Assembly: GCA_015069095.1 (NCBI GenBank)
Contig: SVJH01000024.1
Location: 1-32,931 of the forward strand
Direction of reading: 5' to 3'
DNA length: 32,931 nucleotides
Source: Oscillospiraceae bacterium
Lineage (GTDB): Bacteria > Bacillota > Clostridia > UMGS1810
Every line of letters starts with the position of its first letter. Position 1 is the stretch's first letter. Under the pieces are notes generated by a model, which made no database searches, had not been told where the DNA came from, and saw nothing but the letters and a program-made list of their open reading frames with translations. A program made the translations under genes and the position numbers. Below are positions 3,209 to 17,704 of this stretch, piece after piece.

Positions 3209-3485
3209 TATAAAAACGATGACGGAAAGGGCTGCGTTAAATGCCGCTTAGAGAGGTAACGGTTGGTGCAAGTTACCGGGTAGGTTTCGCAAGTTTGTAG
3301 TTCCTGAGTTGAAAGGAAGAAAGCTATAAGTAGCAAGTAGAACCTTTTCGAGAATGCTGCGTAAGTGCAAAAAGGCTTGATAGAGCCTTAAGTGGTGCTT
3401 TTATAAAGCGCAATTTGAGTGGTACCGCGGGAATAATGTTATCTCGTCTCAAAGATTTTATACAATCTTTGGGATTTTTTTATTT
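3209..3485 (+). promoter_or_regulatory. T-box leader, predicted valine (GTA) specifier
   Basis: T-box RNAs bind a specific uncharged tRNA and then let transcription pass the terminator. Visible parts are the AGAGAG motif (3249-3254), distal-loop motif GGTTGGTGCAAG (3261-3272), the T-box GAGTGGTACCGCGGG (3417-3431), and a terminator (3447-3457 with 3464-3474, then Ts). Stem I base helix GGAA (3224-3227) pairs with TTCC (3301-3304), the upper helix TGCG (3233-3236) with CGCA (3288-3291). The nine-base loop strand 3292-3300 between them places the specifier at 3297-3299, GTA = Val, one purine before the helix. The bulge TGGT fits a tRNA ending in ACCA. The specifier is my manual fold; the T-box identity is firm. 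Confidence 0.9.
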
Positions 3486-5921: not shown

Positions 5922-6205
5922 TCAAAAAAACACAAAGATGCGGAATAGTACGCAAAACACTTTCGCCTAAGAGAGATGCCGGTTGCTGCGAGGCATTGGG
6001 AAAGATTTGCAGAACTCACCGCGGAGTGGTTGATGTGAAATTTGTAGTAGCGTCAAACGGGAACTCCCGTTACAGAGTTAAGATGTGTTGGCATCTAAAG
6101 TGCATCCTACATAGGGTGAAAAAGAGTGGTACCGCGGAAACATTGTAAATTTATAACGTTTTCGTCTCTTTGAATAAACAAGGAGTCGAAGGCGTTTTTT
6201 GTTTA
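5922..6205 (+). promoter_or_regulatory. T-box leader, predicted leucine (CTC) specifier
   Basis: Stem I base helix GCGG (5940-5943) pairs with CCGC (6019-6022). The opposing loop strand has the canonical AGTA (5947-5950), and the upper helix GCAAA (5952-5956) pairs with TTTGC (6006-6010). The specifier strand reads GAA-CTC-A, the textbook form, placing CTC (Leu) at 6015-6017. AGAGAG (5969-5974), a GGTTGCTG distal-loop motif and the T-box GAGTGGTACCGCGG (6124-6137) are present. The terminator pairs 6157-6172 with 6179-6194, then TTTTTT. The UGGU bulge fits A73 of tRNA-Leu. This is the clearest specifier call of the three. Confidence 0.93.
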
Positions 6206-6244: not shown

Positions 6245-7633
6245 ATGAAAAAAATCAGTATTACAGACATTACTCTTAAAAAACTTTCCGAGCAAAGAGA
6301 AGTAGCTTTATTATTTCGTGAAAAGACAGCAATTGCTTCTTGCGTAGATTTAATTGGTGCAGATAGTATTGAACTGCCTCCTGTTAAAAACATCAGAGAA
6401 GATTCTATTATATATAAAACAATCGCACAAAACGTTAAAAATGCAACTCTTGCAATTTGTGTAAAAAACAGCACTGATGAAATTATATCATCATACGAAT
6501 GTATTAAAGATGCAAAGCATAAACGTATTCAGATTGAACTCCCTATTTCAACTGTTCAAATGGAATATACATATCATCTAAAAGGCGATAAAATGCTTCT
6601 TAAAATTGCCGAAATGATTAAATGTGCAAAATCATTGTGCGACGATGTTGAATTTAGTGCACTTGATGCAACACGTGCAGATGAAGATTTCATTATTCTT
6701 TGTGCAAAATCTGCAAAAGAAAACGGTGCAAAAATATTTACCATTTGTGATGACGCCGGCGTTTCATTACCTAATGAAATTGCTTTATTAGTTAAAAAAA
6801 TCAAAGACGAAACAGGCATTGATGTTTTTGTTCAGCCGTCCGACCGAATCAGTATGGGTGTTGCATCATCAATTGAAGCAGTTAAATACGGCGCAGACGG
6901 AATAAAATGCGCGATGGCAGGAAAAGACGTTCTTTTAATGGATAAAATTTCTGATGCATTAAACACTTGCTCTTCAAAATTAGGAATTGAAACAAATCTT
7001 GACTACACAAAAATTCACGCAAGTATTGATAAAACACTTGAAAATGTTAATCATCAGTCTTACGAAAATGAAAGTGAAGTTGGAGGCATTAAAAAAGTAC
7101 TTCTTGATAATGACTCTACCCTATCTCAGGTTGCAAAAGCGGCTTCTGATTTAGGATACGACCTTTCAGAATCAGATGTTGGAAACGTTCACAAAGCTCT
7201 TATGCAGGTTTGCGAAAAGAAAAGTGAAGTTGGTGCAAAAGAATTTGAAGCACTTATTGCATCAAGTGCAATGCAGGCTCCTTCTTTCTATCATCTTGAA
7301 AACTACACAACCAACAGCACTAATCTTTCAAGTTCAATGTCTCAGGTTACACTAAAATATAACGACGAAATTATTTCAGGTGTGAGCATTGGAGATGGAC
7401 CTATCGATTCAGCATTCCGTGCTATTGAACAGTGTATAGGATATCACTATGAACTTGATGATTTTCAGGTTCACTCAGTAACAGAAGGAAAAGAAGCATT
7501 GGGCTCTGCTGTTGTAAGACTTCGTAACAACGGAAAACTATATTCAGGAAATGGAATTTCTACTGATATAGTTGCTGCAAGTATCAGAGCTTATATAAAT
7601 GCAATTAACAAGATAGTATTTGAGGAGGCATAA
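6245..7633 (+). CDS. 2-isopropylmalate synthase homologue with degenerate active site and intact LeuA regulatory domain
   Basis: The 462-residue product has a DRE-TIM barrel-like half (about 1-240) and a LeuA dimer/allosteric domain (about 345-460; GDGPIDSAF, VTEGKEALGSA, GISTDIVAASIRAYINAIN). The fold is recognisable from DATRADEDF and DDAGVSLPNE. The catalytic signature DTTLRDGEQ is replaced by DITLKKLSEQ, the HxHND metal motif by VQPSD (197-200 region), and the NGIGERAGN loop is gone. It therefore probably does not make isopropylmalate but may bind leucine as a sensor or as partner of the next gene. I chose ATG 6245 (GAAAGGGG upstream); an in-frame ATG at 6170 lies inside the T-box terminator. 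It is the first gene behind the Leu T-box and sits 1 nt before the ATG of the next gene. Confidence 0.85.
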   Translation: MKKISITDITLKKLSEQREVALLFREKTAIASCVDLIGADSIELPPVKNIREDSIIYKTIAQNVKNATLAICVKNSTDEIISSYECIKDAKHKRIQIELPISTVQMEYTYHLKGDKMLLKIAEMIKCAKSLCDDVEFSALDATRADEDFIILCAKSAKENGAKIFTICDDAGVSLPNEIALLVKKIKDETGIDVFVQPSDRISMGVASSIEAVKYGADGIKCAMAGKDVLLMDKISDALNTCSSKLGIETNLDYTKIHASIDKTLENVNHQSYENESEVGGIKKVLLDNDSTLSQVAKAASDLGYDLSESDVGNVHKALMQVCEKKSEVGAKEFEALIASSAMQAPSFYHLENYTTNSTNLSSSMSQVTLKYNDEIISGVSIGDGPIDSAFRAIEQCIGYHYELDDFQVHSVTEGKEALGSAVVRLRNNGKLYSGNGISTDIVAASIRAYINAINKIVFEEA

Positions 7634-7634
7634 A

Positions 7635-10094
7635 ATGAAGATTGTATTTTCAACAAAGAATGTAAATCGTACATCATTTATTGATTTGTGCCGATATGCT
7701 TATGACTACGGATTTTCAGGTTTTGAAATATATGATGCATTAAAAGAAAAAACTATGCACGCTGACAGTATTTTACGTCGCGACCGCGTAGCAGATGCAA
7801 AAAGAAAACTTATAAACAGATCTATTTCTGTTTCAGCACTTCGTATGCCACATCCTATTGAAAGCGATGAAACAACAAGTGATTTAATTACAAAATATGT
7901 AGATATGGCTTCAAATGCGTCTATCTCTTATGTAATTGTCCGCATTGAAGAGGAAATATCGTTTGATTTATTAAAAGAAAAACTTTCTGATGCTATTAAA
8001 AGAGCCGAAAAAACAGGTGTAGAAATTTTATTTGAAACTGTTGGCTATCTTTCAAACACAGAAAAAGTTATTGATATTATTAACTTTTTCTCATCTTCAA
8101 AAATTGGCGCTGCATGGAATGTAAGAGGAACATATTTCGGTGCAGGCGAAACTTCAGAAACAACAATAAAAAGTCTTGGTGCTTATATTAAATATGTACG
8201 TCTTGGCGATATGAAAGATGGAAAAACAGTTCTTATCGGCGAAGGCGAACTTGATGTTGAAAAACTTATAAATGCGCTTTCTTCACTTAATTATGAAGGT
8301 TATATATGCGCAGCGTGGAACGAAGAAATTAACGATGCAGATATTGTACTTACTCATTTTGCAAACTATATTTCTTCACTTAAAAGAGAAAAGAAAAGTT
8401 ATGAACACGCATATTTTAACCGTCAGAAAACAGGTACATTTGTATGGAAAAAATATGATGTTATCGACGCAACTTTCTCTGATGTACTTGACAAAATGGC
8501 AGAAACTTATCCTGACCAATATGCATTTAAGTACCCTACCCTTGACTACACAAGAACTTACAAACAGTTTAAAAAAGATGTAGATGAATGTGCTGCTGCT
8601 CTTATATCTCTTGGTGTAAAAGCAGGCGACCATGTTGCTGTATGGGCTACAAATGTGCCTCAGTGGTATATTACATTCTGGGCTACTACAAAAATCGGTG
8701 CTGTACTTGTTACTGTAAATACGGCGTATAAAATAAACGAAATTGAATACTTACTTAAACAGTCTGACACTCATACACTTGTTATGATTGAATTCTGTAA
8801 AGATATAAACTACAAAGAAATAATTAAAGAATTATGCCCTGAACTTGAAAATCTTACTCCGGGCGAACCTCTTTATTCAAAAAATCTTCCGTTTTTAAGA
8901 AACGTTGTAACTGTAGGTTTTTCTATGGACGGATGTCTTTCGTGGGAAGAAATGCTCTCTCGTGCGCCTATGATTCCTATCGAAGAAGTAAGAAGACGCG
9001 CATCACTTGTAAAACCTGACGATGTTTGTAATATGCAGTATACATCGGGGACAACAGGATTTCCTAAAGGCGTTATGCTTACGCACAGAAACATTGTAAA
9101 CAACGGAAAAACAATCGGCGACAGAATGGATTTATCGACTGCAGACCGTATGATGATTCAGGTTCCTATGTTCCATTGTTTTGGAATGGTACTTTCTATG
9201 ACATCTATGATGACACACGGCGGTACACTATGCCCTATTCCGTATTTTTCGCCAAAATCATCTCTTGCTTGCGTAAATGACGAAAAAATTACTTGTTTTA
9301 ACGGTGTTCCTACCATGTTTATAGCAATGTTTAATCATCCTGATTTTGCAAAAACCGATTTTTCATATATGAGAACAGGTATTATGGCAGGTGCTAACTG
9401 TCCTGCAGATTTAATGCGCCGTGCGTCTGTTGAAATGAATATGAAAGAAATCATTTCTGTTTATGGCCAGACTGAAGCATCTCCTGGCTGTACTATGGGC
9501 GAAGTAAATGAAGACCTTGACCACAGAGTTGAAACTGTTGGCAGTGCATTTCCTGGTGTTGAATGTAAGATTATCGACCCTGAAACAGGATGCGAACTTC
9601 CCGACGGCGAAAGTGGCGAATTTGTTGCAAGAGGCTTTAATATAATGAAAGGCTACTACAAAATGCCTGAAGCAACTGCACAGGCAATCGACAAAGACGG
9701 CTGGCTTCATTCAGGCGATATTTGTATGAGAACACCTGATGGATATTATAAAGTTACAGGACGTCTTAAAGATATGATTATCCGTGGCGGCGAAAACTTA
9801 TATCCGCGTGAAATTGAAGAATTTTATCTTACAAATCCTAAGGTTCGTGATGTTCAGGTTGTTGGTGTTCCTGACGAAAAATACGGTGAAGAATGCTGTG
9901 CATGGATTATTCTTCATAAAGGCGAAACGGCAGATGAAAATGAAATGCGCGCATTTGGTATGGCTTCAATTGCATCTCACAAAGTACCAAAATACTTTGT
10001 ATTTGTAAATGATTTCCCAATGAATGCCGCAGGAAAAATACTAAAATATAAAATGCGTGATGAATCTATTGAAATGTTAGGCTTAAAAAAATAA
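7635..10094 (+). CDS. TIM-barrel (sugar-phosphate-isomerase-like)/acyl-CoA ligase fusion, Leu T-box unit
   Basis: The 819-residue product has an N-terminal AP-endonuclease-2/xylose-isomerase-like TIM barrel (about 1-255; LFETVGYLS, GEGELDVEKLINAL, YEGYICAAW). A complete fatty-acyl-CoA synthetase follows (about 275-819): TSGTTGFPKG with Lys478, PMFHCFGM, SVYGQTEASP, GYYKMPEAT, SGDICMR, GRLKDMIIRGGENLYPREIE and AAGK with Lys801. The barrel lacks several usual metal ligands (WN for WD, RLGD for HLKD), so it may bind and not isomerise. The ligase belongs to a different branch (FadD/medium-chain type) from the XRE-cupin paralogues. GAGGAGG at 7622-7628 fixes ATG 7635, 1 nt after the previous stop, so translation is probably coupled. 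Isovalerate as substrate is inferred from the Leu T-box. Confidence 0.87.
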   Translation: MKIVFSTKNVNRTSFIDLCRYAYDYGFSGFEIYDALKEKTMHADSILRRDRVADAKRKLINRSISVSALRMPHPIESDETTSDLITKYVDMASNASISYVIVRIEEEISFDLLKEKLSDAIKRAEKTGVEILFETVGYLSNTEKVIDIINFFSSSKIGAAWNVRGTYFGAGETSETTIKSLGAYIKYVRLGDMKDGKTVLIGEGELDVEKLINALSSLNYEGYICAAWNEEINDADIVLTHFANYISSLKREKKSYEHAYFNRQKTGTFVWKKYDVIDATFSDVLDKMAETYPDQYAFKYPTLDYTRTYKQFKKDVDECAAALISLGVKAGDHVAVWATNVPQWYITFWATTKIGAVLVTVNTAYKINEIEYLLKQSDTHTLVMIEFCKDINYKEIIKELCPELENLTPGEPLYSKNLPFLRNVVTVGFSMDGCLSWEEMLSRAPMIPIEEVRRRASLVKPDDVCNMQYTSGTTGFPKGVMLTHRNIVNNGKTIGDRMDLSTADRMMIQVPMFHCFGMVLSMTSMMTHGGTLCPIPYFSPKSSLACVNDEKITCFNGVPTMFIAMFNHPDFAKTDFSYMRTGIMAGANCPADLMRRASVEMNMKEIISVYGQTEASPGCTMGEVNEDLDHRVETVGSAFPGVECKIIDPETGCELPDGESGEFVARGFNIMKGYYKMPEATAQAIDKDGWLHSGDICMRTPDGYYKVTGRLKDMIIRGGENLYPREIEEFYLTNPKVRDVQVVGVPDEKYGEECCAWIILHKGETADENEMRAFGMASIASHKVPKYFVFVNDFPMNAAGKILKYKMRDESIEMLGLKK

Positions 10095-10119: not shown

Positions 10120-10926
10120 ATGAAAAAATACAAAATAATTGATGCTCACTGTCATATATATCCAGATAAAATTGCAAAAAAGGCAGCAGAAGCTACCTGC
10201 GATTTTTATGAAGGTCTTGGCTCTACTCTCGACGGCACTGTGTCTACTTTGTCAAAAGAAGCAGATATTGCCGGAATTTGCCATTGTATAGTTCAATCTG
10301 TTGCTACAACACCAAAACAAGTTTCAAGCATAAATAATTTTATTGCATCAACTGTCAATGAAAGTAACGGTAAATTTACAGGACTTGGAACACTTCATCC
10401 CGACAGTGAAGATATAGAAAGAGATGTAAATGAAATTATTGACCTTGGTTTAAAAGGTGTTAAACTTCATCCTGACATACAAAAATTTAAAATTGACGAT
10501 TATCGTATGCTTAAAATTTATGAACTTTGCGAAGGCAAACTTCCTATTCTTGTCCATACTGGCGATTGTCGTTATGACTTTTCAAACCCAAACAGAATGA
10601 TGCCAATTCTTGATATTTATAAAAACTTAACTGTTATAGGTGCTCATTTTGGCGGATGGTCTATTTGGGAAGAAGCAACAGAAAAACTAAAAAATTATAA
10701 AAACTTTTACGTTGACTGTTCATCTTCGCTTTATGCCATTTCATCTGAGAAAGCAAAAGAACTTATAAATGCATATGGCACAAAACGAGTTCTTTTTGGA
10801 ACAGACTACCCTATGTGGAAACCAGAAGAAGAAATTGAAAGATTTATGCAAATAGATCTTACAGAACGCGAAAGAGAAGATATTTTTTGCAACAATGCAG
10901 CAAAACTCTTCAATATAGAATTTTAA
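10120..10926 (+). CDS. Amidohydrolase_2 family metal-dependent hydrolase or decarboxylase
   Basis: The 268-residue product has the whole amidohydrolase-2 signature: DAHCHIYP (His10, His12), GVKLHPDIQ, ILVHTGD, GAHFGGW and the C-terminal LFGTDYPMW with the metal-binding Asp. Family members hydrolyse or decarboxylate small cyclic or carboxylic substrates on a TIM barrel; the sequence does not tell which. It follows the ligase fusion by 25 nt with a GAGAGG ribosome binding site and no terminator between, so it belongs to the Leu T-box unit. No terminator is visible after it: the promoter of the next T-box begins 19 bp downstream, so read-through into the Ile leader is possible. Confidence 0.85.
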   Translation: MKKYKIIDAHCHIYPDKIAKKAAEATCDFYEGLGSTLDGTVSTLSKEADIAGICHCIVQSVATTPKQVSSINNFIASTVNESNGKFTGLGTLHPDSEDIERDVNEIIDLGLKGVKLHPDIQKFKIDDYRMLKIYELCEGKLPILVHTGDCRYDFSNPNRMMPILDIYKNLTVIGAHFGGWSIWEEATEKLKNYKNFYVDCSSSLYAISSEKAKELINAYGTKRVLFGTDYPMWKPEEEIERFMQIDLTEREREDIFCNNAAKLFNIEF

Positions 10927-10980: not shown

Positions 10981-11262
10981 AATTTGAATATCACAAAGAA
11001 CGACTGTGACGAGGACGGTCGGATTGCGAAGCTTAAAGAGAGTTGCCGGTTGGTGCAAGGCAATGGCAGAACTTTCCAATGACTTATCACCTCCGAGTCG
11101 AAGGACCGAAAGCAAAATGCAAGTAGACTCCTTCCGTATTGCTGCGTAAAGGCAAAGGGCTTGTTAGAGTCCGGTAAGTGACGGAATTTTTTCCGTAATT
11201 TGAGTGGTACCGCGGGTTATACAACTCGTCTCAAAGTTTTCTTTGAGACGAGTTTTTTGTTT
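10981..11262 (+). promoter_or_regulatory. T-box leader, predicted isoleucine (ATC) specifier
   Basis: Stem I base helix GAGG (11011-11014) pairs with CCTC (11090-11093), the upper helix ATTG (11023-11026) with CAAT (11077-11080). The nine-base strand between CAAT and CCTC ends ATC-A, placing the specifier ATC (Ile) at 11086-11088, with GAG at 11095-11097 as in the other two leaders. AGAGAG (11037-11042), GGTTGGTGCAAG and the T-box GAGTGGTACCGCGGG (11202-11216) are present. The terminator is a perfect 14-bp stem (11223-11236 with 11241-11254) followed by Ts. The UGGU bulge fits A73 of tRNA-Ile. This leader resembles the Val leader in overall sequence, which suggests duplication with the gene behind it. 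Confidence 0.9.
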
Positions 11263-13652: not shown

Positions 13653-15089
13653 GTGAAAAAAACATATGTAACTTCAATGCCAAACCATATCGGCGCATTT
13701 TTAAAAGCAAGCCAATGCTTTTCATCTCTTGGAATAAACATTACACGCGTAAGTTACAATAAAGCTGTTGATTCACACACCCTGTTTATTGATGCAGAAG
13801 GTACAGAGGAACAGTTAAAAAAGGCAGATACTAAGCTTGAAAAAATTGGTTATCTTCATAATAACACCAATAAATCAAGCATTGTATTGATAGAGTTTCA
13901 TCTTAAAGATGTTCCCGGAAGTGTAACAAATGTATTAACACTTATAAATGAATTTAATTTCAATATCTCATACATAAGTTCACAAGAAAACGGAACAGAT
14001 TATCAATATTTTAAAATGGGATTATACGTTGATGATTATGGTAAGATATCCGAGTTTTTAAAAGAAGCTGAAAAACTTTGCAAAGTTCGTGTAATTAACT
14101 ATAACAGTTCCGAAAAAGTTTATGATAACAGTATTTTTTATAATACCTACGTTTTAGGCCTATCACAAACAATGGGACTTTCAAAAGATGTAAGCAATAA
14201 ACTTTTGGTTCACATAAATCTTGCAATGCAAATGCTTGATGAACAAGGATTATCACCATATCGTACATTTGACAGCATCAGCAAATTTGCAGAACTATTA
14301 GGAAGTTCAAAAGGAAAAAACTTTAATCCCAGAATCAGTACTCATAAAATAACAGACAATACAGAAATAACACTTATCGAGCCACCTTGTGGAAGTAATA
14401 CTCTCATCATAAAAAGTTTAAACAAAGTATTATTTGTAGATAGCGGTTATGCGTGCTATAACGATGAGATGCTTAAAGTTTTTAGAAGGATTATTCCTGA
14501 TTTTGACACTATCGAAAAGACTATCCTTGTTACTCACGCTGATGTAGATCATTGTGGTTTATTACCATTATTTGATAAGATAATTACAAGCGTAAAAACT
14601 GCATCTTGCCTCAAAAAAGAATATGAAGGAAAAGACGGATACAGAGAATCAAACCCACTTCACAAACCATATATAAATATTTGTAAAATTCTCACATCAT
14701 ACAAGGCAGTTAACCCCGACAAAATAACACCGATGTGGAATAATACAGAAAAACTTACTGAACCTCTTACACAAATCGGATTTTTCGATTTTGGAGAATT
14801 GCATTTTGAAGTTTACGAAGGTAAGGGAGGTCATCTTCCAGGAGAAATTGTGCTTATTGATTACTTAAATCATATTGCAATTACTGGCGATATTTACATA
14901 AATACACATGGTCTTACTGCTCAACAAGCACAGTACAATCAGTATGCACCAATACTTATGACATCTGTTGATACAGATCCAAAACTATGTTTGGAAGAAA
15001 GAGGCGCAATTATGCAAAGACTTGGTGTTGGCAAATGGCAAATATTTGGTGCACACGGGTTTAAAAAAGATTATTCCGTTAATTTATAG
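13653..15089 (+). CDS. ACT-ACT-metallo-beta-lactamase-fold protein
   Basis: The 478-residue product begins with two ACT domains (about 4-70 and 76-146; the second has FHLKDVPGSVTNVL). After a linker comes a metallo-beta-lactamase-fold hydrolase (about 240-478) with THADVDHCG (His295, Asp297, Asp299, His300), GHLPGEIVL (His394) and ITGDIY (Asp413). The motif is HxDxDH, not the usual HxHxDH. ACT domains bind amino acids, so a hydrolase gated by a branched-chain amino acid is a reasonable guess; a thioesterase on acyl-CoA is one option but unproven. The start is GTG 13653 with a GAGG site at 13641-13644. It lies 32 nt after the Ile-unit ligase and is probably cotranscribed. Confidence 0.82.
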   Translation: MKKTYVTSMPNHIGAFLKASQCFSSLGINITRVSYNKAVDSHTLFIDAEGTEEQLKKADTKLEKIGYLHNNTNKSSIVLIEFHLKDVPGSVTNVLTLINEFNFNISYISSQENGTDYQYFKMGLYVDDYGKISEFLKEAEKLCKVRVINYNSSEKVYDNSIFYNTYVLGLSQTMGLSKDVSNKLLVHINLAMQMLDEQGLSPYRTFDSISKFAELLGSSKGKNFNPRISTHKITDNTEITLIEPPCGSNTLIIKSLNKVLFVDSGYACYNDEMLKVFRRIIPDFDTIEKTILVTHADVDHCGLLPLFDKIITSVKTASCLKKEYEGKDGYRESNPLHKPYINICKILTSYKAVNPDKITPMWNNTEKLTEPLTQIGFFDFGELHFEVYEGKGGHLPGEIVLIDYLNHIAITGDIYINTHGLTAQQAQYNQYAPILMTSVDTDPKLCLEERGAIMQRLGVGKWQIFGAHGFKKDYSVNL

Positions 15090-15118: not shown

Positions 15119-15150
15119 AAATCGTGCCTTATAAAAGACACGATTTTTTA
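15119..15150. terminator. Terminator between convergent genes
   Basis: An 8-bp perfect stem (AAATCGTG 15119-15126, CACGATTT 15139-15146) is flanked by A-rich and T-rich arms, so it can serve the ACT-MBL gene and the opposing LysR gene. Confidence 0.8.
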
Positions 15151-16035
15151 TTTTGAAAAGTTTGTTTCAATTATATAATCAATAAGTGTTTTAAGTGCTT
15201 TTGAAATCCACTTATTTTTATGATAAATAAGTTGTTTCCATATTTCTATATTTATATCACACACATCAAGATAGCATAGTTTTCCTGATTCTACAAGTTC
15301 TTTTGTTACAAAATCGGGAAGAAATGATAATGCATCACTATCGGCTACAATAGATGTAATCATATCCGTCCTTCCAATTTCAAGAATCGGCGTAATTTCC
15401 AATGACTTTTTTGCAAGTTCCTTATCAAAAACTCTTCTGTAGCCTTGTCCGTACTCTGTTAATATAAAAGGTTCGTTTATAATATCATTAATAGATAAAT
15501 TTTTAACTTTACTAAATTTTGAATTTGAACTTGCTACAAAATGCATCGAAATTGGTTCTTCTTTTGCTATAACATAATCTTTATGATACGAATGACTATC
15601 AAGCGTTATAATAACGTCGGCTTCGTTATGGTCAAGCATATCAAACATTACAGATGTATCAGCAGTAGTAAATTTTATGGAAATATCAGGATAAATTTTA
15701 TGAAAATCAATATAGTTTTTAGTAATTAAAGCATCACACAAAGAGTCCGGAGTAACAAGATGAATGTGCCCCGTGCATTCTTTTTCATCAAGATTTTCTT
15801 TAAATTCTTCTGTTAAAGTGCGAATTTGATGCGCATATGATACAAGTTCATGCCCCCTCTTTGTGAGTGTAATTGTATGATTTATTCTTTCAAACAAAAG
15901 ACAACCAAGTTCATCTTCAATCTGTTTTATTTGAAAAGAAATTGTTGATTGTGAATACCCAAGTTGCTCAGCGGCTTTAGTAAAACTTCCAAGTTCCGCA
16001 ACATGAATAAATGTGATTAAGTTTCTTAATTCCAT
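15148..16035 (-). CDS. LysR-family transcriptional regulator
   Basis: The 295-residue product has the LysR N-terminal winged helix-turn-helix (about 1-60; FIHVAELGSFTKAAEQLGYS, then STISFQIKQIEDELG) and a periplasmic-binding-like effector domain (about 90-290). A GGAGG ribosome binding site precedes the ATG. It is divergent from the sodium:solute symporter gene with 118 bp between the starts, the usual arrangement of a LysR activator and its target. The effector is unknown; a short-chain carboxylate would fit the neighbourhood. Confidence 0.93.
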   Translation of the reverse strand: MELRNLITFIHVAELGSFTKAAEQLGYSQSTISFQIKQIEDELGCLLFERINHTITLTKRGHELVSYAHQIRTLTEEFKENLDEKECTGHIHLVTPDSLCDALITKNYIDFHKIYPDISIKFTTADTSVMFDMLDHNEADVIITLDSHSYHKDYVIAKEEPISMHFVASSNSKFSKVKNLSINDIINEPFILTEYGQGYRRVFDKELAKKSLEITPILEIGRTDMITSIVADSDALSFLPDFVTKELVESGKLCYLDVCDINIEIWKQLIYHKNKWISKALKTLIDYIIETNFSK

Positions 16036-16086
16036 TATAATCCTCCAGCATCTATTTTTTCGATAATAAACATTAAAACTATTCGT

Positions 16087-16118
16087 TTGACTAATCTTAC
16101 TTGGTATTATATACTAAG
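16087..16118 (+). promoter_or_regulatory. Symporter promoter with overlapping dyad
   Basis: TTGACT (16087-16092) and TATACT (16110-16115) with 17-bp spacing form a good promoter for the symporter. A near-perfect dyad, CTTGGTAT-TAT-ATACTAAG (16100-16118), covers the -10. It has the size and T/A-ended form of a LysR operator, but the position on the -10 would suit repression or autoregulation better than classical activation. Confidence 0.65.
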
Positions 16119-16153
16119 TTATAGAAAAAAGCAAGACTTGGAGGAAATAAAAA

Positions 16154-17704
16154 ATGACAAATGCACAACTTTACACTATTATCGCTCTTTGCATTTATGC
16201 AATAGCAATGGCACTTATCGGATGCATTAGTTACGGTAAGTCGAAAACACTTGACGGATTTTTAATTGGCGGCAGAAATATAGGCGCTTGGGTTACTGCC
16301 TTTGCATATGGTACTACATATTTTTCTGCTGTTGTTTTCGTTGGATATGCCGGTCAACACGGATGGAACATCGGTCTTGGAAGTATTTGGATTGGTATTG
16401 GTAATGCAGTTTTAGGGTGCTTACTTTCTTGGATTCTATTTGCAAACAGAACAAGAAAAATGACCAAAAAACTAAATGCAAGAACTATGCCTGATTATTT
16501 TGAAAAACGTTATGATTCAAAAGGTATGAAAATACTTGCTGCTATTATTATATTTGTTTTCCTTGTTCCTTACTCTGCTGCTGTTTATAAAGGACTTGGT
16601 TCTCTATTTAGTGCAGTATTCCCTGGTGTTGAAACATGGGTATGGATGCTTATTATTGCTTGTCTTACAGCGGTTTATCTTGTTGCAGGCGGATACATTG
16701 CAACAGCATACACCGACCTTATTCAAGGTATTGTTATGATTGTTGGTGTTGTTTGCCTTATCTGTGCTGTTTTAGGACACAAATCAGTTGGCGGACTAAA
16801 CGGACTTATTGAAAATCTTAGAAACTTTAAATCAGTTGCCGGCGATCCCAACCCTACAACAGGCGCACAACTTACTAATATTTTTGGTGGTTCTTCATTT
16901 AAATTCCTATGCTTTAACATAATGCTTACAAGTTTTGGTACTTGGGGACTTCCACAGATGATTGGTAAATTCTATGCGGTAAAAGATACAGCGGCAATTA
17001 AGAGAGGTACAATCATTTCAACTATTTTCTGTGTAATTATCGGATGCGGTGCATACCTTATTGGAAGTACATCAAGACTTATTTTAGGAGGCGTACTTCC
17101 AAAAGGAGGCGTTGACTCAGTTATTCCTGCAGTACTTATGGAAGTTTTAGGTAACGGTACACTTGGAATTATACTTTTAGCAGTGATTATGATTCTTCTT
17201 CTTTCAGCATCAATGTCTACTCTTGAAGCAGTTGTTTTAACATCAGCATCAGCAGTTGCAGTTGACCTTATCCCTGCTGTAAGAAAAAAAGAAACAAAAC
17301 CTGAAAATCAAATGATGCTTACAAGAATTCTTTGTCTTGTATTTGTTGCTTGTTCGTTTATTTTTGCAACACAGAACATTCCGATTATAGTAAGCCTTAT
17401 GTCATTCTCTTGGGGAATTGTTTCTGGTTGCTTTATTGGACCTTACATCTGGGGACTTTTCTCAAAGAAAATTACAAAAATCGGTGCTTACTCAGGTATT
17501 ATTTCAGGGCTTTTGGTTGTAGGTATTTCTACACTTATAATTACATTAAATGCAGATTTTTCAACAGCAGCAAAAATGTCTCCTGAAATGGGCGTTGCAG
17601 CAATGGCGGTTTCTTTTGTTATTGTTCCGCTTGTAAGTGCATTTACAAAAAATAAAGATACAAAAAGAGTTGACGAAATCTTTACTTGTTACAACGAAGA
17701 ATAA
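16154..17704 (+). CDS. Sodium:solute symporter (SSS family)
   Basis: The 516-residue product is a polytopic membrane protein with about 13 hydrophobic segments and the SSS start: a first helix, then LDGFLIGGRNIGAWVTAF and the family stretch around ATAYTDLIQG in the fifth helix region. Members import proline, pantothenate, acetate and other monocarboxylates with sodium. The sequence does not settle the substrate. A TTGGAGGAAA ribosome binding site precedes ATG 16154. Because it is divergent from a LysR gene and next to three acyl-CoA ligases, uptake of short or branched carboxylates is a testable guess; an amino acid is the alternative. Confidence 0.9.
   Translation: MTNAQLYTIIALCIYAIAMALIGCISYGKSKTLDGFLIGGRNIGAWVTAFAYGTTYFSAVVFVGYAGQHGWNIGLGSIWIGIGNAVLGCLLSWILFANRTRKMTKKLNARTMPDYFEKRYDSKGMKILAAIIIFVFLVPYSAAVYKGLGSLFSAVFPGVETWVWMLIIACLTAVYLVAGGYIATAYTDLIQGIVMIVGVVCLICAVLGHKSVGGLNGLIENLRNFKSVAGDPNPTTGAQLTNIFGGSSFKFLCFNIMLTSFGTWGLPQMIGKFYAVKDTAAIKRGTIISTIFCVIIGCGAYLIGSTSRLILGGVLPKGGVDSVIPAVLMEVLGNGTLGIILLAVIMILLLSASMSTLEAVVLTSASAVAVDLIPAVRKKETKPENQMMLTRILCLVFVACSFIFATQNIPIIVSLMSFSWGIVSGCFIGPYIWGLFSKKITKIGAYSGIISGLLVVGISTLIITLNADFSTAAKMSPEMGVAAMAVSFVIVPLVSAFTKNKDTKRVDEIFTCYNEE

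Follow-up and report, generated by a model that had tools for sequence, protein, structure and literature searches.

Genes and T-box leaders of the locus

The window, i.e. the whole stretch of 32,931 nucleotides analysed here, derives from an Oscillospiraceae genome and carries a run of genes for acyl-CoA ligases together with a gene related to leuA. The following features were assigned.

3210..3454, + strand: T-box leader of the adjacent ligase module, GUA (Val); scored 93.0 bits, right at the gathering score
3539..5830, + strand: HTH-cupin-acyl-CoA synthetase (MbcS-like), putative isobutyrate ligase, Val module
5926..6172, + strand: T-box leader, CUC (Leu), with terminator/antiterminator, ahead of the LeuA-like gene; RF00230, 143 bits
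6245..7633, + strand: LeuA-like pseudoenzyme, 462 aa; HMGL-like TIM barrel, shortened linker, LeuA_dimer domain
7635..8432, + strand: sugar-epimerase-type TIM barrel (AP_endonuc_2), N-terminal part of the ligase fusion; model pLDDT 90
8433..10094, + strand: AMP-forming acyl-CoA ligase part of the fusion (PRK12583-like), proposed isovalerate-CoA ligase
10120..10926, + strand: amidohydrolase (Amidohydro_2, Pfam), same gene run
10997..11236, + strand: T-box leader, AUC (Ile); RF00230
11320..13620, + strand: HTH-cupin-acyl-CoA synthetase (MbcS-like), putative 2-methylbutyrate ligase, Ile module
13653..15089, + strand: ACT domain and metallo-beta-lactamase-fold protein behind the Ile ligase

The LeuA-like gene starts with ATG, preceded by the ribosome-binding site AAAGGGG. 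Its product (here also called pseudo-LeuA) consists of an HMGL-like TIM barrel (residues 1-270), a short linker and a LeuA_dimer domain (residues 328-462), and both domains expected of a LeuA were matched above the Pfam cut-off (HMGL-like, 4.1e-29; LeuA_dimer, 1.2e-32). The NCBIfam equivalog cut-off was missed (TIGR00973, 221.5 bits vs 598.7), and NF002086 scored 245 vs a cut-off of 532. The AlphaFold model (pLDDT 86.6) found its best PDB matches among isopropylmalate synthases, with a domain arrangement that is uncertain because of the pTM of 0.59. No other LeuA-like gene is present in the 2.06-Mb, 98% complete genome; a second LeuA-type match, with an E value of 7e-4 and confined to residues 148-225, was weak and presumably represents a different HMGL-type enzyme. 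In those homologous loci where an amidohydrolase was seen, its gene either follows the fusion or precedes the LeuA-like gene.

Specifier codons were read from the aligned specifier column of the RF00230 leaders. The leucine T-box which the first-pass annotation had placed ahead of the LeuA-like gene was confirmed as a Leu-class leader by its RF00230 match and its CUC specifier. Leaders of LeuA-like genes carried CUC in 63 of 64 cases and CUG in the remaining one, i.e. a leucine codon in all 64, and many of the most distant homologues had no T-box motif in the leaders searched. Among the true LeuA proteins retrieved, one (L027) likewise had a CUC T-box motif upstream.

The Val and Ile T-boxes, which were absent from the earlier annotation, each precede an HTH-cupin-acyl-CoA synthetase, and one T-box switch per branched-chain amino acid is thereby found within about 10 kb. 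The codon was GUN in 10/10 homologous Val leaders, the window's own counted and one false motif inside a gene left out, and AUC in 28/28 homologous Ile leaders. The two HTH-cupin-acyl-CoA synthetases are possibly self-regulating or sensing enzymes, and the ACT protein could be the isoleucine sensor of the Ile module, parallel to pseudo-LeuA. On another contig of the same genome (L116:686-4962, contig C44), a UAC (Tyr) T-box was found before an AMP ligase and IorAB; by analogous logic, this module looks like one for making tyrosine out of 4-hydroxyphenylacetate. Leaders with UUC and UAC are also present in further loci. Just past the Ile module, a LysR regulator lies divergent from a sodium:solute symporter (15148-17704), possibly for acid uptake, and at the left end (246-2447) an ArdA antirestriction protein and a tyrosine integrase may mark a mobile-element edge beside the cluster.

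Catalytic site and leucine pocket of the LeuA-like protein

For the family analysis, 84 distinct homologues of the LeuA-like protein were aligned with 8 true LeuA proteins of related genomes. Residue roles were taken from MtLeuA, whose numbering is used for His379 and Tyr410 (PMC2704214). It had been proposed that the protein lost catalysis and retained the leucine domain. This is strongly supported at the level of the family, and alignment with the characterised isopropylmalate synthase MtLeuA (1sr9/3fig) showed replaced metal ligands and conserved leucine-pocket residues.

The DRE-TIM signature DTTLRDGEQ indeed reads DITLKKLSEQ (residues 8-17) and HxHND reads VQPSD (residues 196-200), with the metal ligands D81, H285 and H287 of MtLeuA corresponding to K13, Q197 and S199. 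A histidine at either HxH position was found in 0/84 LeuA-like homologues vs 8/8 true LeuA proteins, and the metal-binding aspartate of RDG in at most 1/84 vs 8/8. All 84 homologues lack both the GxGER columns and the TYEIM segment through deletion. Also, the linker segment holding the His379/Tyr410 region is missing from the LeuA-like protein, which therefore has 462 aa compared to 504-514 aa in true LeuA. D8, D141 and R144 are retained in the family; the glutamate preceding D141 in true LeuA is leucine in the LeuA-like protein. The product thus lacks both the metal ligands of a LeuA (RDG aspartate and HxH) and its GxGERxG motif and linker with the catalytic histidine and Tyr410. By the alignment, the catalytic residues are lost across the LeuA-like family and not in one degraded gene. 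A LeuA with a shifted metal site was also considered and rejected, as no alternative ligand set was seen.

The leucine pocket was mapped via a C-domain profile aligned to 1sr9/3fig; the full-alignment profile left the C-domain unaligned to MtLeuA. The MtLeuA pocket residues G531, G533, L535, V551, Y554, A565 and A567 correspond to G383, G385, I387, L404, F407, A418 and G420, and these seven positions are near-invariant in the 84 homologues. G531 and G533 are positions at which changes make the enzyme feedback-resistant. The pocket position S411 was also mapped and is conserved in the family. Compared to true LeuA of related genomes, the pocket differs only by Phe instead of Tyr at 407 and by Ala/Ser at 411, so that in its pocket residues the domain resembles the leucine-sensing LeuA_dimer domains. 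The C-domain is the best-conserved part of the family (mean top-residue frequency 0.83, barrel 0.70), and with GDGPIDSAF at residues 383-391 and GISTDIVAAS at residues 437-446 the earlier description of a well-kept allosteric domain holds.

No internal stops were present in 74 LeuA-like coding sequences, and dN/dS of close pairs was 0.04-0.1; the gene is under purifying selection. A simple pseudogene was rejected by this dN/dS, and a sequencing or assembly artefact by the 84 distinct intact homologues.

The ligase fusion and a probable branched-acid pathway

The fusion starts at 7635, one base past the stop codon of the LeuA-like gene, and its ligase motifs YTSGTTGFPKG and AAGKILKYK are intact. 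Among about 80 homologous loci, all those on a sufficiently long contig have the fusion directly after the LeuA-like gene, usually with a gap of a few bases, which strongly supports the coupling of both genes assumed in the first-pass annotation. The barrel of the fusion matches UlaE-type epimerases, with UlaE as nearest solved structure of the model, and its metal-ligand motifs WD.HH, VH.KD and LEW read WNVRG, VRLGD and AAW in the window.

The fusion also occurs without the LeuA-like gene (roughly 27 of 98 genomes), and all seven standalone fusions with an Rfam-found leader have a Leu T-box with CUC. Therefore, control of ligase transcription by leucine works independently of pseudo-LeuA, which adds a further layer rather than being required as a partner by each such ligase. 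The metal motifs of sugar epimerases (ET.G, WD.HH, VH.KD, LEW) are retained in all 19 standalone fusion barrels. In paired loci they are mostly kept in early-branching pairs, mostly replaced in intermediate pairs, and the metal site is lost in 52/52 members of the core paired set, the close relatives of the window. In this core set, D and the first H of WD.HH are changed to N and R, H of VHVKD is R in 51 and K in one, and E of LEW is A in 49. By these patterns, the metal site of the fusion barrel decays stepwise, and only in lineages with pseudo-LeuA. Distances of the LeuA-like protein and of the fusion barrel seem to be correlated beyond what the ligase explains (partial correlation given ligase, 0.32 overall and 0.51 in the core set), a modest effect which is suggestive only.

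Family searches of the window's own genome did not find ilvC, ilvD or Aminotran_4 (ilvE family) and no normal leuC, the LeuC match being an aconitase-sized protein only. VorB was found with 573 bits (cut-off 399). This combination fits synthesis of leucine from isovalerate by a ligase, a 2-oxoacid:ferredoxin oxidoreductase and a transaminase. The LeuA-like gene is carried by 22 of 98 relatives, spread over about ten families. By hand counts among the matches listed, a true LeuA is present in about 2 of 22 carriers vs roughly 50 of 76 others (Fisher p about 2e-6), and a LeuC of normal size in about 4 of 22 carriers vs roughly 52 of 76 others (Fisher p about 5e-5).

According to the passages on these routes in PMC7356843 and references there, formation of leucine from isovalerate is established physiology of rumen bacteria (citing Allison 1962, 1966), and carboxylation also leads from isobutyrate to valine and from 2-methylbutyrate to isoleucine. 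The cluster most likely encodes this Allison-type pathway to leucine, valine and isoleucine. The acid taken by each ligase is inferred from the T-box codon and the pathway logic.

Proposed function and relation to known systems

Our best reading is that the LeuA-like protein senses leucine and controls the ligase, i.e. that it is a regulatory pseudoenzyme derived from LeuA and acting on the putative isovalerate-CoA ligase fusion, for which we estimate a probability of about two thirds. As the catalytic site is lost, the leucine site kept and the gene co-encoded with a ligase, the protein resembles a feedback sensor moved between pathways; a dead homologue under purifying selection and linked to its presumed target enzyme is also what characterises a regulatory pseudoenzyme. 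Leucine binding, contact with the ligase, the ligase substrate and inhibition as the sign of control are predicted.

In the proposed mechanism, pseudo-LeuA and the fusion would be co-transcribed under the Leu T-box. The ligase would most likely convert isovalerate to isovaleryl-CoA, from which a VorB-type 2-oxoacid:ferredoxin oxidoreductase would form 4-methyl-2-oxopentanoate by reductive carboxylation, followed by transamination to leucine. Plentiful leucine would bind to the LeuA_dimer domain of pseudo-LeuA, and the signal would pass via contact with the fusion, probably at its equally degenerate TIM barrel. Thereby, the ligase would be throttled and less isovalerate activated. MtLeuA relays the leucine signal through Tyr410 in its linker (PMC2704214); as this linker is deleted in pseudo-LeuA, signal transfer must differ there. 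For the origin of the system, a tentative scenario with slightly less than even chances is that LeuA lost catalysis as the isopropylmalate route was given up but retained its leucine switch, and was recruited as regulatory subunit for the replacement isovalerate-CoA ligase, where it would dock on a second dead barrel that is part of the fusion.

A different role of the barrel is conceivable, because polar residues specific to the family are conserved in it. Q105, E107, Y108, H111 and K113 are present in nearly all 84 homologues, K221 is a further conserved polar residue specific to the LeuA-like family, and K12, S199 and D200 are found in the core clade. A second ligand or activity could thus exist, such as a new metal-independent catalytic or CoA-thioester-binding function in the isovalerate route on which leucine feedback acts. 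However, formation of leucine from isovalerate requires no extra chemical step, DRE-TIM enzymes use a divalent metal whose ligands are gone here, and conservation is lower in the barrel than in the C-domain, so that we regard this explanation as unlikely.

Direct control of the ligase by pseudo-LeuA is not forced by the data, since the fusion lacks this partner in many genomes. The target of the sensor might instead be the 2-oxoacid oxidoreductase or a transporter, for instance; 10 relatives have VorB and the LeuA-like gene together in one locus. In most loci, however, VorB is unlinked, whereas the fusion is the sole invariant immediate neighbour and its barrel changes in step with the presence of the LeuA-like protein. 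Another partner is therefore, in our estimate, slightly less probable still than a new role of the barrel.

A surviving LeuA/CimA-like synthase activity based on replacement metal ligands is very improbable, despite the fold match to isopropylmalate synthases and the retained D8, D141 and R144: the protein has lost the metal aspartate, both histidines, GxGER and the His379/Tyr410 segment, and most of these genomes have no LeuC among the matches listed that could use the product. A decaying remnant, to which the loss of catalytic residues alone would point, is in practice refuted by the selection data (dN/dS and absence of stops) and hard to reconcile with strict linkage and a Leu T-box in many genomes.

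Under the preferred reading of a leucine sensor acting on the ligase, the protein offers a clear test case of an allosteric domain which persisted after its enzyme was lost and came to serve the enzyme of a replacement pathway. Rumen bacteria were described in the 1960s as requiring branched-chain acids, and the locus also provides candidate genes for this requirement, with codon-specific switches of their own. As the T-box codon indicates the amino acid of its module, substrates and feedback ligands are directly testable. The hosts are gut and rumen bacteria which seem to make leucine from isovalerate, a fermentation acid. Searches of part of the open-access literature yielded no account of an inactive LeuA homologue; regulatory pseudoenzymes are known, but the association of a pseudo-LeuA with a carboxylate-CoA ligase is new as far as could be checked.

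With LeuA itself (TIGR00973; MtLeuA 1sr9/3fig) the protein shares the fold and the domain order of DRE-TIM barrel, linker and LeuA_dimer; it differs by the absence of metal ligands, GxGER and the linker segment of the His379/Tyr410 region and by having an acyl-CoA ligase as operon partner. Compared to the rumen routes, for which the passages in PMC7356843 name no genes, each ligase here has its own T-box and the leucine arm additionally contains pseudo-LeuA.

A further parallel is provided by HisZ. The proposed principle is the same as in the short-form ATP phosphoribosyltransferase (PMC9734150), where a separate regulatory protein conveys amino-acid feedback to the committing enzyme. The folds of HisZ and the LeuA-like protein are unrelated. 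HisZ, a paralogue of histidyl-tRNA synthetase, is catalytically dead; the dead enzyme described here would stem from an older route by which the same amino acid was made, and its target would be a carboxylate-CoA ligase.
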